Below are positions 28,602 through 36,820 of a stretch of 64,000 nt of DNA, in pieces. The position numbers were made by a program, and so were the translations under genes. The notes below the pieces were generated by a model. The model worked only from the letters and a program-made list of their open reading frames with translations. It did not search any database and was not told where the DNA came from. The stretch's first letter is position 1, and each line of letters begins with the position of its first letter. Source of the DNA: Acetobacterium woodii (GTDB lineage: Bacteria > Bacillota > Clostridia > Eubacteriales > Eubacteriaceae); assembly GCA_016213825.1 (NCBI GenBank), contig JACQZP010000009.1, forward strand, positions 1 to 64,000. The letters are read 5' to 3'.

Positions 28602-28652
28602 CTTATTCCCATTCAATCGTCGAAGGTGGCTTGCTGGTAATATCATAGACAA
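28602..28652 (-). repeat. guaA 3' end, proximal attachment repeat
   Basis: The partner of 17297-17347 (47/51 bp). It is the functional end of guaA, encoding [14 protein letters not shown] and stop. Confidence 0.92.
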
Positions 28653-30150
28653 TCCGGCTGACATGCTTCACTTCGTTAACAATACGGGTGGAAATGCTTT
28701 CCAGTACGTCAAACGGAATTCGCGCCCAGTCGGAGGTCATACCGTCAACCGAGGTAACGGCTCTTAGACCAATGGTATAGTCATAGGTTCGTTCATCACC
28801 CATAACGCCAACGCTGCGGTTTCCTGGCAGTACTGCAAAGTATTGCCAGATCTCTTCATCAAGGCCAGCCTTTGCAATTTCGTCTCTAAAGACAAAATCA
28901 GCTTCTTTTAAGATATCCAGTTTTTCTTTGGTAACATCGCCCATCACCCGAATGGCCAGGCCTGGCCCCGGGAAGGGTTGACGCCAAACCAGATCGTGAT
29001 CCAGTCCGATTTCTTCGCCCACGGCCCGAACCTCGTCTTTAAACAGGTTCCGCAGTGGTTCAATCAGTTCAAAATTCACATCATCCGGCAGTCCGCCAAC
29101 GTTGTGATGGCTTTTGATGACCGCGGCATTTTTGGTACCGCTTTCGATAACGTCAGGATAGATGGTTCCCTGAAGCAGAAAATCGATGTCGTTTAATTTG
29201 CTGGATTCTTCTTCGAAAACGCGAATAAATTCAGTTCCGATGATCTTACGTTTTTGTTCCGGATCACTGACGCCAGCTAATTTACCAAGGAAACGATCTT
29301 CGCAGTTTACCCGGATAAAATTCATGTTAAAGCGGTTTTTAAAGATCGCTTCGACCTGATCGCCTTCATCTTTTCGCAGCAGACCATGATCCACAAAAAT
29401 ACAGGTCAGCTTGTCACCAATGGCTTTGTGAACCAGGGTCGCCGCAACTGATGAATCGACTCCGCCACTGAGGGCGCATAAAACCCGGCGATCGCCGACT
29501 TGTTCTTTGATGGCTTCAATCTGTTCCTGGGCGAAGTTCTGCATGGTCCATAAACCTTCGCAGCCACAGACATCATAGATAAAGTTGTTTAAGACTTCTT
29601 TTCCGTATTGGGTGTGTTCTACTTCCGGATGGAATTGAACCGCATAAAGCTTCCGTTCATGACATTCCATGGCGCCAGTGGGACATGAGTCGGTGGTCGC
29701 GGTGATCGTGAATCCATCGGGAATTGTCTGGATATAGTTGGTGTGACTCATCCAACAGGTGGTTCCATCGGGGATGCCTTTGAAAAGCACTGAGTCTTTT
29801 TCGAAGTTCAATGCTTTTTTACCATACTCACGAATATCCGCCGAATCGGTAACCCCTTTTAGCTGCTCGGCCATCAGCTGAGCGCCATAGCAGATTCCTA
29901 AAATCGGAATACCCATGTTGTAAATTTCCGGATCACATTGCGGTGCTCCTTCTTCATGAACACTGGAAGGTCCACCGGTGAAGATAATCCCTTTGGGATT
30001 TTTCTTGCGAATCTCATCGGGGGTGATATCATAAGGAACAACTTCAGAATACACTCTGGCCTCACGGACCCGTCGGGCGATCAGCTGATTGTATTGTGCT
30101 CCAAAATCCACAATGAGAATGATCTCATCTTGATAATGCTTTTTTATCAT
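28603..30150 (-). CDS. guaA: GMP synthase (glutamine-hydrolysing)
   Basis: A 515-residue enzyme that converts XMP to GMP with glutamine. The N-terminal amidotransferase has GICYGAQL with the nucleophile Cys (about 87) and FHPEVEHT. The ATP pyrophosphatase domain has ALSGGVDSS, and the dimerisation end has [10 protein letters not shown] and KPPSTIEWE. It lies 8 bp after guaB, so the two form a guanine operon. The last 16 codons double as the attachment site of the island. Full length. Confidence 0.98.
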
Positions 30151-30158
30151 AAATTCTC

Positions 30159-31712
<1,554 letters not shown>

Positions 31713-31811: not shown

Positions 31812-33845
31812 TTAAAACAACAAAAGTGATGGGTTTTCCATATCTGCTTTAATGGCTTGTAAGAACTTTGCACCTTCCACGCCATCGGCAACCCGGCGAT
31901 CCAGATTCAGACTGATTTTCATAACTGATCGAACCACCGGCTCGCCCTGATGCACCCGGATCCGCTGAACCACTTCACCGACACTGAGGATGGCGCTGTT
32001 GGGCTGGTTGATGATGGCGGTAAATTCCCGAATGCCATACATGCCCAGGTTGGTGATGGTAAAGGTGCTGCCCTGAAGCCGCTCTGATGGTAACTGTCTG
32101 TTCTTAACTATTTTTAGTAAGTCACCCCGACTTTTTACCATTTCCACAAAGTCCAGATCCTGAGCGTTTTCAATCACAGGCACAATCAGACCTTGATCAG
32201 ATTCTACCGTTAAGCCCATGTGCACATGGGTGTGTGTAATGATCTGGTCGTCTTCCCGTCTGGCATTAATCAACGGATGTTTAATCAGCGCCCGGGATGT
32301 CGCCAGCAGCAGAAAATCAGTGTAGGTACAGCGATATCTGACCTGGTCTTCGATTTTTTTGGTTATTTTCTTTCGCAGATCTTTGATTTCGGTCATATCA
32401 ATTTCGGTGGTTAATGTAATCACCGCTGTTTCCACATTGCTTTTGTCCAACTTTTCTTCAACGGGGTTAGGTTTCTCAATAGCTGCGTTGTTATTTTCCA
32501 GCTTCTCCTTGAAAAGTTCTGACTCAAGTGGTGACGTATCAATTTCATTGTTTGCTATTTCCGGAACTCTTATTTCTGGAACCTCTATTTGAATCGGTTC
32601 CGTCTCGGGTTCACGGCTTTCCGGTTCATCAGTTTTCAGTTCGGCTGTTTCAGACCTCAAGATTTCTGGTTCACCAACTTCTGGCTCATTAACTTCCAGC
32701 TCACAAACTTCTGGTTCAATAGCTTCCAGCTCACAAACTTCCGGTTCATCAACTTTTATGGCATCGATTTTTTCTTCGGTTATTTCATTTTCATTTTTGT
32801 CTTCAACCGTCGTTTTTCTTCTTAAACCTCGGGGCTTTCTATTTTGGAGCCCAGATTCTTCCATTTCGGCTTCATGGAGCAGATGCATGGGTGTTGGTTT
32901 AACAATGATTTCGTCCCGGAGTGGTTCCGCCTTAATATCGACAAATGGCACAAAATCCAGCTCTGATATTTTTGTCACCACATCGGCATCCTTTTCTTCA
33001 AATTTCTCGGCATTTTCGTCCACAAAGGGCACAAAGTCCAGTTCGGGATTTGGCAATTTTTCTATCTTATGATTCATATCTTTGAGTCTTTTTCGAGTAT
33101 CTGCTTTTTTAGCTGGCGGCTCTTCCAGTTTCACCGGCAGTGAAAAAAGATTCTGCGGATTTCCGGCCAGGTTCTCCAGATCCGTGCTAATAACCACCGG
33201 TTCTTTGGATTTAAAATTAAAGGTTCCGGGTTGGATCACCACCATTTTTTTGACATCATCCACTTCAATTCGGCCGTTTGGTCCGGTGCCGGTTGCCTTT
33301 TTTATATCCACCTTAAATTCCCGGGCAATCCGTCTGGCTGATGGGGTGGCTCTGACCTTGCCCTCTCGGGGATCCTGCTTTGGAAATTCCTGTGACGCTT
33401 CTTCTTGCACCGCCAACAGCTCCTCCTTCAATTCTTCCTTCAGCTCTTCCTCCAGAGTTTCTTCGATGTCCTCATCCTTGATGATTTCTCGAACAGCTTC
33501 AGACCGCTGGTCTTTTGTCCCTTCCTTGATTGTTTCTTCCAGATTTTTTTCCAATGCCTCAATGGCCGCCGTCAATTTTTCTTCCAGGTTTTCTTCTGGA
33601 AGATCTTCATCCAAAACGTCTTCCGCCGGTTCTTTAATTTCTGTAGGTGCTTCTGCCCTGATCGCTTCGGCTGTCTCGATTTCCTGATCTGAGACCACTG
33701 CTTGAAGCGACTCTTCCTGTTTATCGTTATGAAGAACTGCATCTTCTTTATTTGCTTCCGCCAATTCAACCGTTGTGGTATTTGTCAAGTTTTCTGCTGT
33801 CATATCCAATTTCTCTTTCGGTAGTATTATTTCATTTTCCATCAT
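31812..33845 (-). CDS. Atypical 2-oxoacid dehydrogenase E2 component, no lipoyl domain
   Basis: A 677-residue protein. Residues 1-20 (NEIILPKEKLDMTAENL) resemble only the first strand of a lipoyl domain; no ETDKA lysine follows. A Glu-rich region (about 60-160) leads to an E3/E1-binding domain (about 164-202, RATPSARRIAREFKVD). Then a long acidic linker with two ELDFVPFVD motifs (268, 295) and EPEVCELE repeats (about 367-395). The C-terminal acyltransferase domain (about 470-677) is well conserved, but the catalytic HRxxDG is RRVADG (Arg650). It follows the E1 genes with a 12-bp gap. It may be a structural core or use another protein's lipoyl arm; catalysis is doubtful. Confidence 0.85.
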   Translation of the reverse strand: MMENEIILPKEKLDMTAENLTNTTTVELAEANKEDAVLHNDKQEESLQAVVSDQEIETAEAIRAEAPTEIKEPAEDVLDEDLPEENLEEKLTAAIEALEKNLEETIKEGTKDQRSEAVREIIKDEDIEETLEEELKEELKEELLAVQEEASQEFPKQDPREGKVRATPSARRIAREFKVDIKKATGTGPNGRIEVDDVKKMVVIQPGTFNFKSKEPVVISTDLENLAGNPQNLFSLPVKLEEPPAKKADTRKRLKDMNHKIEKLPNPELDFVPFVDENAEKFEEKDADVVTKISELDFVPFVDIKAEPLRDEIIVKPTPMHLLHEAEMEESGLQNRKPRGLRRKTTVEDKNENEITEEKIDAIKVDEPEVCELEAIEPEVCELEVNEPEVGEPEILRSETAELKTDEPESREPETEPIQIEVPEIRVPEIANNEIDTSPLESELFKEKLENNNAAIEKPNPVEEKLDKSNVETAVITLTTEIDMTEIKDLRKKITKKIEDQVRYRCTYTDFLLLATSRALIKHPLINARREDDQIITHTHVHMGLTVESDQGLIVPVIENAQDLDFVEMVKSRGDLLKIVKNRQLPSERLQGSTFTITNLGMYGIREFTAIINQPNSAILSVGEVVQRIRVHQGEPVVRSVMKISLNLDRRVADGVEGAKFLQAIKADMENPSLLLF

Positions 33846-33857
33846 TCTGCCAACTCC

Positions 33858-34859
33858 CTATTCCCGGTTAAGGAGACGATAGACTCCATGAACGAAATCG
33901 TTTCGTTGGGGTACCACCGAAGCTTCCAGTTCTTGATTAAACGGAATGGGAACATCCAGGCCACCCAGACGGATGATCGGGGCATTGAGATAATCAAAGG
34001 CTTCGCTTTCCACCACCCGCGCCACAATTTCACCGCCCAGTCCCCCGGTTTTTGATGCTTCATGGGCGACAATCAGACAGCCGGTTTTAATAACCGATTC
34101 AATAATCGGCTTCATATCCATGGGATACAGGGTCACCGGATTGAGGATTTCAACTTTGATCCCCTCTTCTTCTAAAAAATCCGCCGCTTCAATGGCTTTA
34201 GCAAGGGTAGTGCCGTAAGCGACAATGGTTACGTCCTTCCCGGGACGTTCCACCACCGTTGTTCCGATTTCGACAAGGTAATCCTCATCCAGCGGAACCA
34301 GACCGACCTTGTCATAAAGCAATTTATGCTCAATAAAACACACCGGGTTATTGTCCCGAATGGCTGCCTTAATTAACCCCTTTGCCTGGGCGGGGGTCGA
34401 TGGGGTCACGACCTTTAAACCAGGCACATGACAAAGCCATGCTTCCAGGCTCTGACTGTGCTGAGCCGCTGCTCCGATTCCCGAGCCCGCTGGCAACCGC
34501 AATACCATCGGTACCTGTGACTGTCCGCCAAACATATAGCGCATTTTTGCGGCCTGATTGACCAGGGCATCCATACCCAAGGTAATAAAATCCATAAACA
34601 TGATTTCACAGATCGGGCGTAATCCAGTCGTTGCTGCTCCCACAGCGGTTCCGACCATAGCTGCTTCGGCAATCGGCGTATCCAGAATTCGGTCTTCGCC
34701 AAATTCTTCCAGCAGACCGGCCGATACTCCAAAGGCACCGCCATAAAGGCCAATATCTTCGCCCATAAAAATAACATTCTCATCCCGATGCATTTCTTCG
34801 GTGATCCCCAGGCGCAGGGCGTCGCGGTAGGTCATTTTTTTCATATCACTTGTTTTCAT
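33858..34859 (-). CDS. acoB: Thiamine-dependent 2-oxoacid/acetoin dehydrogenase E1 beta
   Basis: A 333-residue transketolase-like subunit: TYRDALRLGITEEMHRDENV, GEDIGLYGGAFGV, EIMFMDFITLG and the C-terminal fold (IVAHEASKTGGLGGEI). With E1 alpha it forms the heterotetramer that decarboxylates a 2-oxoacid or cleaves acetoin on thiamine diphosphate. The AcoB assignment rests on overall likeness to acetoin dehydrogenases; a pyruvate or branched-chain enzyme is possible. Its ATG overlaps the E1 alpha stop by one base (TGATG). Confidence 0.85.
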   Translation of the reverse strand: MKTSDMKKMTYRDALRLGITEEMHRDENVIFMGEDIGLYGGAFGVSAGLLEEFGEDRILDTPIAEAAMVGTAVGAATTGLRPICEIMFMDFITLGMDALVNQAAKMRYMFGGQSQVPMVLRLPAGSGIGAAAQHSQSLEAWLCHVPGLKVVTPSTPAQAKGLIKAAIRDNNPVCFIEHKLLYDKVGLVPLDEDYLVEIGTTVVERPGKDVTIVAYGTTLAKAIEAADFLEEEGIKVEILNPVTLYPMDMKPIIESVIKTGCLIVAHEASKTGGLGGEIVARVVESEAFDYLNAPIIRLGGLDVPIPFNQELEASVVPQRNDFVHGVYRLLNRE

Positions 34860-35833
34860 CAGTTAACCCCTCCCGCATAAACATCTTCTAAAACTGCATT
34901 CAACTGAGGTTCTGGGCTTGCATTCGCAAATTCCAGCGCCTGATCAATGGAGGCTTTGGCTTCATCTTCCATTTTCTGAATTTGTTTTTCGGTAAAGATC
35001 CGATGTTCTCTGAGATATTCTTTCATTTTTTGAACTGGATCTTTCTTTTGCCATTCCCGGACCTCTTGTTTGTCCCGATATAACTGATTGTCACTTTGGG
35101 AGTGACCGTTGTAGCGATAGGTTTTGGCTTCAATCAGTACCGGCCCTTTTCCAGCTCTGGCATAACGCAGTGCCTTGGTGACGGTGTTGTAAACATCAAG
35201 AAAATCATTGCCATCAATGGTAAGGCCAGGCATGTTGTAGGCTTCGCTGCGATCGGAAATATTTTCGATATTCATGTGCTTTTCAATCGGCGTTGACATG
35301 CCATACTGATTATTCTCAATCAGAAAAACAACCGGCAATTTCCACACTGAGGCCAGATTTAAGGATTCATGAAAATTTCCGCCATTGGTGGCTCCATCTC
35401 CGGCAAAGCAGAGGACCACCTTTCCGGTTTTTTGATACTTTTGGGTCAGCGCTGCTCCACAGGAAAGGCTGAAGCCACCTCCAACCACACCATTTGCTCC
35501 CAGGTTGCCATTTTCCACATCGGCAATATGCATCGATCCGCCTTTACCCTTGCAGTAACCGGTGGCTTTTCCCAGACATTCTGCCATCATCAAATTGACA
35601 TCCAGTCCAAAGCCAATGGCCTGGGCATGGCCCCGGTGGCTCAGGGATACCAGATCCCCTTCTTCCAGTGCCAGACAAGACATCACACCGGTTGCCTCCT
35701 GACCCATGCTCAAATGGATTGCTCCGTGAACCTTGCCCTTAGCGACGAGTTCGTCCAGCTTTGCTTCGAAAAATCGAGCCTGGTTTATTTTATAATACAT
35801 TCTTAATAGAAGTTCTTCTGATAATTCAATCAT
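34859..35833 (-). CDS. acoA: Thiamine-dependent 2-oxoacid/acetoin dehydrogenase E1 alpha
   Basis: A 324-residue subunit. The thiamine-diphosphate motif is FAGDGATNGGNFHESLN through VFLIENN (about 160-195). The KGKGGSMHIAD and SLSHRGHAQAIGFG blocks and the YRYNGHSQSD phosphorylation-loop-like region are typical. The ATG at 35833 follows GGAGG; an upstream in-frame GTG overlaps it. First gene of the E1 alpha-E1 beta-E2 operon; no E3 is nearby, so dihydrolipoamide dehydrogenase must be encoded elsewhere. Confidence 0.87.
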   Translation of the reverse strand: MIELSEELLLRMYYKINQARFFEAKLDELVAKGKVHGAIHLSMGQEATGVMSCLALEEGDLVSLSHRGHAQAIGFGLDVNLMMAECLGKATGYCKGKGGSMHIADVENGNLGANGVVGGGFSLSCGAALTQKYQKTGKVVLCFAGDGATNGGNFHESLNLASVWKLPVVFLIENNQYGMSTPIEKHMNIENISDRSEAYNMPGLTIDGNDFLDVYNTVTKALRYARAGKGPVLIEAKTYRYNGHSQSDNQLYRDKQEVREWQKKDPVQKMKEYLREHRIFTEKQIQKMEDEAKASIDQALEFANASPEPQLNAVLEDVYAGGVN

Positions 35834-35898
35834 GGTTTCCTCCACATTTTCACTAATTATTTTTAAAAAAGGTGAATAACCCTATCAGGCTGTCGCTG

Positions 35899-36063: not shown

Positions 36064-36804
36064 TTATTCTTTTAATAATCTTTTAATTTTTCCCGATAAT
36101 TCCCGGTTTTCGGCAGTTCTTTTCATAATCGACTCGGCAATCACCAAATCTTCCGGGGTAGTAATTTTGATATTGGCATAGTCGCCAGTCACAATTTTAA
36201 CTGGAACATTTAACCGTTCCACCAAAAAGGCGTCATCGGTTCCTTCGATCCCCAGTTCATGCGCATTTTGGTGTGCCTTTTTTAACAGCTCATAAGTAAA
36301 GGTCTGGGGCGTTTGAATCTCCACCAGATAATTGCGATCCGGGGTCTGTTCCACAAAACCGGCCTTATTAATTATTTTGATGGTATTTTTGGCCGGCACC
36401 CCCACCACCGTTGCCCGATGGCTAATAGTCTCTGCAATACTTTTTAAAATCACCGACTCTTGAATCAGCGGTCTCGCCCCATCGTGAACCATCACAATCT
36501 GAGTATTGGACATTACCGCTGCTAAACCGTTATAAACCGACTGCTGCCGGGTTTCCCCGCCACTCACCAATTTTATCTTAGTATAGGGAAAGCTGCTCAG
36601 CACCTGCTCCTGACACAGTTCAAATTCATCCGGATTGATCACCAGAATAATTTCTGAAATCAATGGACATCGCTCAAACACATCCAGCGTATGCGCCAGT
36701 ATTGGTTTCCCCATTAATGTCAGATACTGTTTGCTGATGGCTGCGTTCATCCGGCGACCTAATCCAGCAGCCGGGATAATCACACTGGTTAGCGTTTTTT
36801 CCAT
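36064..36804 (-). CDS. ispD: 2-C-methyl-D-erythritol 4-phosphate cytidylyltransferase
   Basis: A 246-residue enzyme of the MEP isoprenoid pathway that joins CTP to methylerythritol phosphate. Signatures: PAAGLGRRMNAAISKQY (CTP-binding loop), VSGGETRQQSVYNGL, VHDGARPL and the TDDAFLVER end. ATG 36804 is preferred, with GAGGTGG 5 bases upstream; an in-frame GTG overlaps that site. Last gene of the set aminotransferase-pspC-tsaE-ispD on this strand. Confidence 0.95.
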   Translation of the reverse strand: MEKTLTSVIIPAAGLGRRMNAAISKQYLTLMGKPILAHTLDVFERCPLISEIILVINPDEFELCQEQVLSSFPYTKIKLVSGGETRQQSVYNGLAAVMSNTQIVMVHDGARPLIQESVILKSIAETISHRATVVGVPAKNTIKIINKAGFVEQTPDRNYLVEIQTPQTFTYELLKKAHQNAHELGIEGTDDAFLVERLNVPVKIVTGDYANIKITTPEDLVIAESIMKRTAENRELSGKIKRLLKE

Positions 36805-36820
36805 GTTTGCCACCTCATCT

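Follow-up and report, generated by a model that had tools for sequence, protein, structure and literature searches.

In an Acetobacterium genome, the E2 gene of a pyruvate dehydrogenase-type operon encodes a protein that has lost its lipoyl domain and carries arginine in place of the catalytic histidine. This dead E2 probably acts as a scaffold that tethers E1 within a complex no longer relying on lipoyl chemistry. The gene lies in the window, the whole 64,000-nucleotide stretch analysed here. More tentatively, the whole complex (E1, E2 and E3) could have turned non-enzymatic in parallel across the Eubacteriaceae, under selection for a lipoate-independent structural or ligand-sensing role. Pseudoenzymes are well known as single proteins. 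In this case the stepwise loss of chemistry seems to concern an entire multienzyme complex whose parts are still selected, and extant species still show the intermediates. In a limited literature search, no account turned up of E1, E2 and E3 being taken apart in parallel throughout a family while their genes are kept. The family may thus offer a natural experiment on the non-catalytic roles of a 2-oxoacid dehydrogenase complex, and in the acetogens of biotechnology an automatic 'acetyltransferase' label on this gene is probably mistaken.

The E2-like protein and its operon

The features of the locus are as follows, all on the reverse strand.

28603..31697, reverse strand: guaB-guaA, conserved downstream neighbours (synteny)
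31812..33845, reverse strand: E2-like protein of 677 aa, a 2-oxoacid dehydrogenase acyltransferase homologue without lipoyl domain and catalytic His (ORF, Pfam, orthologues)
31818..32456, reverse strand: E2 catalytic-core fold, residues 464-676 (Pfam 2-oxoacid_dh, PF00198, 206-208.8 bits; VIA-align)
31896..31898, reverse strand: codon CGC, Arg650, at the catalytic His of DHRxxDG (alignment with solved E2s; codon read-out)
32694..32747, reverse strand: local tandem duplication of EPEVCELE in the acidic linker (sequence; confined to the species group of the window, degraded in G009 and G010)
32937..32963, reverse strand: linker motif 2, ELDFVPFVD, residues 295-303 (second copy limited to the woodii/dehalogenans/wieringae/window group)
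33018..33044, reverse strand: linker motif 1, ELDFVPFVD, residues 268-276 (LDFVPFV-like motif across Acetobacterium orthologues)
33249..33356, reverse strand: peripheral subunit (E1/E3)-binding domain, residues 164-199 (Pfam E3_binding, PF02817, 49.8 bits; pLDDT 74-85)
33801..33845, reverse strand: vestige of the first lipoyl-domain strand, residues 1-15, MMENEIILPKEKLDM (comparison with the full lipoyl domains of G012, G013 and Eubacterium)
33858..34859, reverse strand: E1 beta of 333 aa, with counterparts of Glu59b and His128b (Pfam, alignments)
34859..35845, reverse strand: E1 alpha of 328 aa, with the GDG...NN ThDP motif and a counterpart of His263/271a (Pfam, alignments)
36064..36813, reverse strand: ispD, conserved neighbour upstream of the operon (synteny in Acetobacterium and most other genera)

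The initial annotation of this DNA had described an E2 with a conserved core fold and E1/E3-binding domain, a lipoyl domain shrunk to a vestige, Arg for the catalytic His, an acidic linker with unusual repeats, and intact E1 genes, and the present analysis bears out this description. Both marks of descent from an E2, the PF00198 core fold and the peripheral-subunit-binding domain, are present, and Pfam reports no further domain of note. A fold search with the E2 core as its input matched solved E2 cores (rmsd 2.8 over 205 residues, VIA-align), and an AlphaFold model computed with 11 orthologues gave a pLDDT of about 80 for the core and 74-85 for the binding domain. The protein thus resembles the E2p and E2o acyltransferases in its core fold (Z up to 22.4), its binding domain and the gene order E1a-E1b-E2. 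Unlike them it lacks a lipoyl domain, has Arg for His, leaves the first 17 positions of the Pfam core profile unmatched and contains a long acidic linker.

Two attributes of a functional acyltransferase are missing: the lipoyl domain with its lipoyl-Lys, and the His of HxxxDG, with which Arg650 aligns in solved E2s (the His of their DHR). Biotin_lipoyl (PF00364) has no Pfam match in the 677-aa frame even at E<=0.1. Only MMENEIILPKEKLDM at the N-terminus resembles the first lipoyl strand of relatives (MAQEIILPKLGMDM and onward), and beyond residue 15 the similarity ends. Structure prediction, which the initial annotation had put forward as a check on residues 1-160, finds no strands there, the region being disordered or helical, and therefore no lipoyl fold. 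In the linker, LDFVPFV stands at residues 269 and 296; one or two copies of an LDFVPFV-like motif occur in all 18 Acetobacterium orthologues, and the motif is absent in Eubacterium. The window E1 retains these hallmarks of the E1 of a pyruvate or acetoin dehydrogenase: the ThDP motif, Glu59b, His128b and His263/271a. A functional complex would also have E3 encoded with E1 and E2; it is missing here, and the E3s of this genome are unlinked.

Repeated loss of the histidine under purifying selection

I identified E2 orthologues in 18 of 19 Acetobacterium genomes (G011 has none), with core identities of 65-94% versus at most 38% for paralogues. Only G012 and G013 keep a full lipoyl domain, with the catalytic motif DHQVADG. 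The other 16 lack the domain, 12 of them with Arg or Gln replacing His:

DHRVADG: G001, G003, G007
DHRVADS: G018 (inferred A. woodii)
DRRVADG: G000 (the window genome), G005, G015 (A. tundrae)
DRQVADG: G009, G010
DQRVANG: seven genomes

In a five-gene tree G005 and G015 branch with the His-bearing G003, apart from the clade of the window, so His changed to Arg twice. The change to Gln is best read from the tree as a third event. Acetobacterium thus appears to have lost this His at least twice and probably three times, a count that leans partly on nodes with modest support (0.62-0.76). Arg650 is no sequencing error, because independent assemblies of sister species (G009, G010) carry Arg too. 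It had been suggested that homologues with His would reduce Arg650 to a lone mutation; some homologues do retain His, but a lone mutation or sequencing error is ruled out by Arg or Gln being common to independent assemblies. As controls, His is present in 70 of the 70 nearest E2s outside the Eubacteriaceae and in all eight paralogues examined from the window genome and G018.

Two observations temper the reading of these motifs. Asn at the position of Asp654 occurs in a studied A. vinelandii E2p (according to entry titles) and in one G018 paralogue, so D654N by itself proves nothing. In E. coli E2o, substitution of His375 by Ala, Cys or Asn leaves 2.1, 1.0 and 0.5% activity, respectively, and His375Trp retains about 60%; the passages on these substitutions report no Arg variant (PMC5986005). 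Thus, loss of His alone is not proof of zero activity.

That selection acts on the complex, as the initial annotation had supposed, is supported by dN/dS, here from simple Nei-Gojobori counts in which dS approaches or exceeds 1 for pairs that are further apart. Among the pairs compared, values were 0.03-0.10 for the E2 core, 0.03-0.07 for E1a and E1b, 0.19-0.38 for the E2 linker and 0.23-0.48 for the E2 N-terminus. By these counts the E2 core is under purifying selection, and the gene is not decaying.

Decay of the complex across the Eubacteriaceae

The decay extends beyond what the initial annotation had noticed: it runs through the family, and E3 is affected as well, as is E1 in some lineages. 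The order in Acetobacterium is alaT-pspC-tsaE-ispD-E1a-E1b-E2-guaB-guaA (in some rows the size filter removes small genes, and contig ends truncate three of the loci). The corresponding locus, alaT-tsaE-ispD-E1a-E1b-E2-(E3)-(guaB)-guaA, was found with gaps in nine of nine Eubacteriaceae genera, pspC, guaB, E1 or E3 being missing in some loci and several loci ending at contig ends. Other genera have E3 in the stretch from E2 to guaA; it is missing from the window locus, and none was found in any Acetobacterium locus spanning that stretch.

The Eubacterium operon is canonical. The E2 of Eubacterium limosum and callanderi is orthologous to that of the window (core 63-64% identical, guaA downstream), but unlike it has a full lipoyl domain with its Lys, the motif DHRVADG and an adjoining E3 with CxxxxC. 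In E. callanderi the gene upstream of the operon is not ispD. Outside Eubacterium and the two Acetobacterium genomes named above, the lipoyl domain or its Lys is missing from E2. In the remaining genera the domain is absent in G028, G029, G031 and G033-G035, and a lipoyl-like N-terminus minus the Lys persists in G019, G020, G030, G036, G038 and G039. The E2 catalytic motif is likewise gone or altered in these genera, and the E3-like neighbour has lost its redox cysteine pair; dN/dS of the E3-like neighbours outside Eubacterium is 0.05-0.14, where computable. In G031 (L248:8793-11012) the binding domain is fused to an E3-like protein and the E2 core is missing.

What, then, has become of E1? 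It could be that half of the enzyme survives, with E1 still using ThDP but no lipoyl group, as a decarboxylase or a carboligase (making, say, an aldehyde or acyloin from a 2-oxo acid), and the dead E2 doing no more than clustering it. I regard this as possible but rather doubtful. It fits the E2 part of the scaffold explanation, and both the window and most of Acetobacterium preserve every key residue of E1. His128b is lost in G019/G020, G030, G031, G033-G035 and G036, and a His128Gln substitution leaves decarboxylation unaffected but severely impairs lipoate acetylation (PMC2663715). G030, G031 and G033-G035 have lost His128b yet keep Glu59b and the ThDP motif. Because His128b is lost in more lineages than Glu59b or the ThDP residues, the lipoyl step has been abandoned more widely than decarboxylation. 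However, the ThDP-activating Glu59b is itself replaced by Lys in G019/G020 and by Ala in G036, the E1a of G018 is degraded (its GDG reads GDS, His263/271a has become Gln and the loop is scrambled), and E1 has been lost from the locus in G029, which keeps the E2 and E3-like genes and has a separate canonical operon elsewhere. ThDP catalysis looks dead in some lineages.

Residual role of the complex

With neither a lipoyl domain nor an operon-encoded E3, the textbook cycle cannot run within the complex alone. Under the scaffold explanation, the ancestor would have been an ordinary dihydrolipoamide acyltransferase, encoded together with E1a, E1b and E3 in the order E1a-E1b-E2-E3; the lipoyl domain would have been lost in the Acetobacterium stem and the catalytic His afterwards. 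E2 would have been kept as a structural part, made up of a core fold that normally oligomerises and a long acidic linker, and its peripheral-subunit-binding domain should still tether E1. The lipoyl-dependent half (reductive acylation, acyl transfer to CoA and reoxidation by E3) would be gone from the complex. From the domains that are retained I infer that the core oligomerises, that E1 is tethered and that the residual complex has chiefly a structural or regulatory role. Since arm and His are lost, selection is retained and the complex has been dismantled in parallel in the Eubacteriaceae, the surviving job is probably structural. The initial annotation had offered a non-catalytic scaffold as one of two readings, and the missing lipoyl domain, repeated His loss, purifying selection and intact binding domain support it well. 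The closest published observation concerns another PDH/acetoin dehydrogenase cluster, Awo_c01690-01720, which is strongly upregulated in A. woodii, a species for which gene deletion is established (PMC10472528).

The second of those readings, a lipoyl arm on another protein, stands only in part. Here a free lipoyl protein would serve E1 and pass electrons to an unlinked E3. The genome search that the initial annotation had called for turned up, in the window genome, four other E2s (all with lipoyl domain and His) and free lipoyl proteins of 78-79 aa with lipoyl-type Lys motifs, together with LipA, LplA and real E3s. As E1 is intact too, some residual chemistry may persist there. There is also a precedent in Proteiniphilum (Bacteroidota), where, as in the window, an E2 that starts at the binding domain adjoins E1a-E1b. 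At L098:6554-9400 this E2 without lipoyl domain is followed by an E3 carrying one, and with the catalytic His also in place the complex looks functional. Unlike the window E2, however, those of Proteiniphilum retain His. Furthermore, the operon is kept in G015, where no LplA, LipA, E3 or other E2 was found (LipA was searched for in the Acetobacterium genomes); in G007, where no free PF00364 lipoyl protein was found; and in G033-G036 (G034 being a single contig), where LplA was not found. The sole lipoamide-dehydrogenase-like protein of G033-G036 (E<=1e-60) is the locus's own and falls below the curated cut-off; no bona fide E3 was found in these genomes. An arm in trans is thus possible for the window genome, is disfavoured for the genus and the family, and is on the whole unlikely.

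At least as unlikely is a mixed assembly in which the dead E2 joins any of the genome's four active E2s. Eukaryotic PDH offers a precedent in E3BP (protein X), whose E2-like core is likewise inactive and retained for assembly. E3BP, however, is surrounded by active E2s and has a lipoyl domain, unlike the window E2, which has no such domain and several relatives of which have no active E2 at all. The operon also carries its own E1s, and no other E2 was found at E<=1e-20 in G003, G005, G007, G012, G013 or G015, so such a role is not the general reason for retention.

A pseudogene operon on its way out is very improbable: catalytic residues have been lost progressively, E3 is gone in Acetobacterium, and G011 has no E2 orthologue and the G029 locus no E1, but the frames are open in 18 of 19 genomes, dN/dS is 0.03-0.10 and synteny is retained family-wide. 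I give equally little credence to E1 as an alternative DXP synthase feeding the adjoining ispD: ispD does adjoin E1a in most loci, DXP synthesis requires no lipoate and full DXS was not found in G012, G013 and G018, but DXS is present in the window genome and 14 others, and the DXS-less G018 has the most degraded E1a in Acetobacterium. G013 and G018 are single-contig genomes with ispD present and full DXS not found. A sigma-54 promoter upstream of E1a was rejected: no match lies there, and across the window such matches are no more frequent than chance predicts.

Several lipoate-related loci were seen along the way. In the window genome, L215:4320-4556 encodes a 78-aa free lipoyl-type protein (ATDKISIYVE), with neighbours that by eye are LipB-like, AcoR-like (regulator), SDR, AMP-ligase-like and LarB/LarC-like. 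The same neighbourhood occurs at L207, L208, L210, L211 and L213, and the gene is also present in G003, G015 and G018, for which the LipA search gave no hit; in G015 the one such protein adjoins a LipB-like gene. At L214:5046-8147 and L216:3334-6445, two LplA genes cluster with LipA and a free lipoyl-type protein of 79 aa, and in G005 (L209) an E3 adjoins the LplA/lipoyl-protein/LipA cluster. GcvH-like proteins adjoin E3 genes at L220:6014-6403 (G007) and L221:6172-6579 (G003), those of G003 lying, by eye, beside glycolate-oxidase-like genes.
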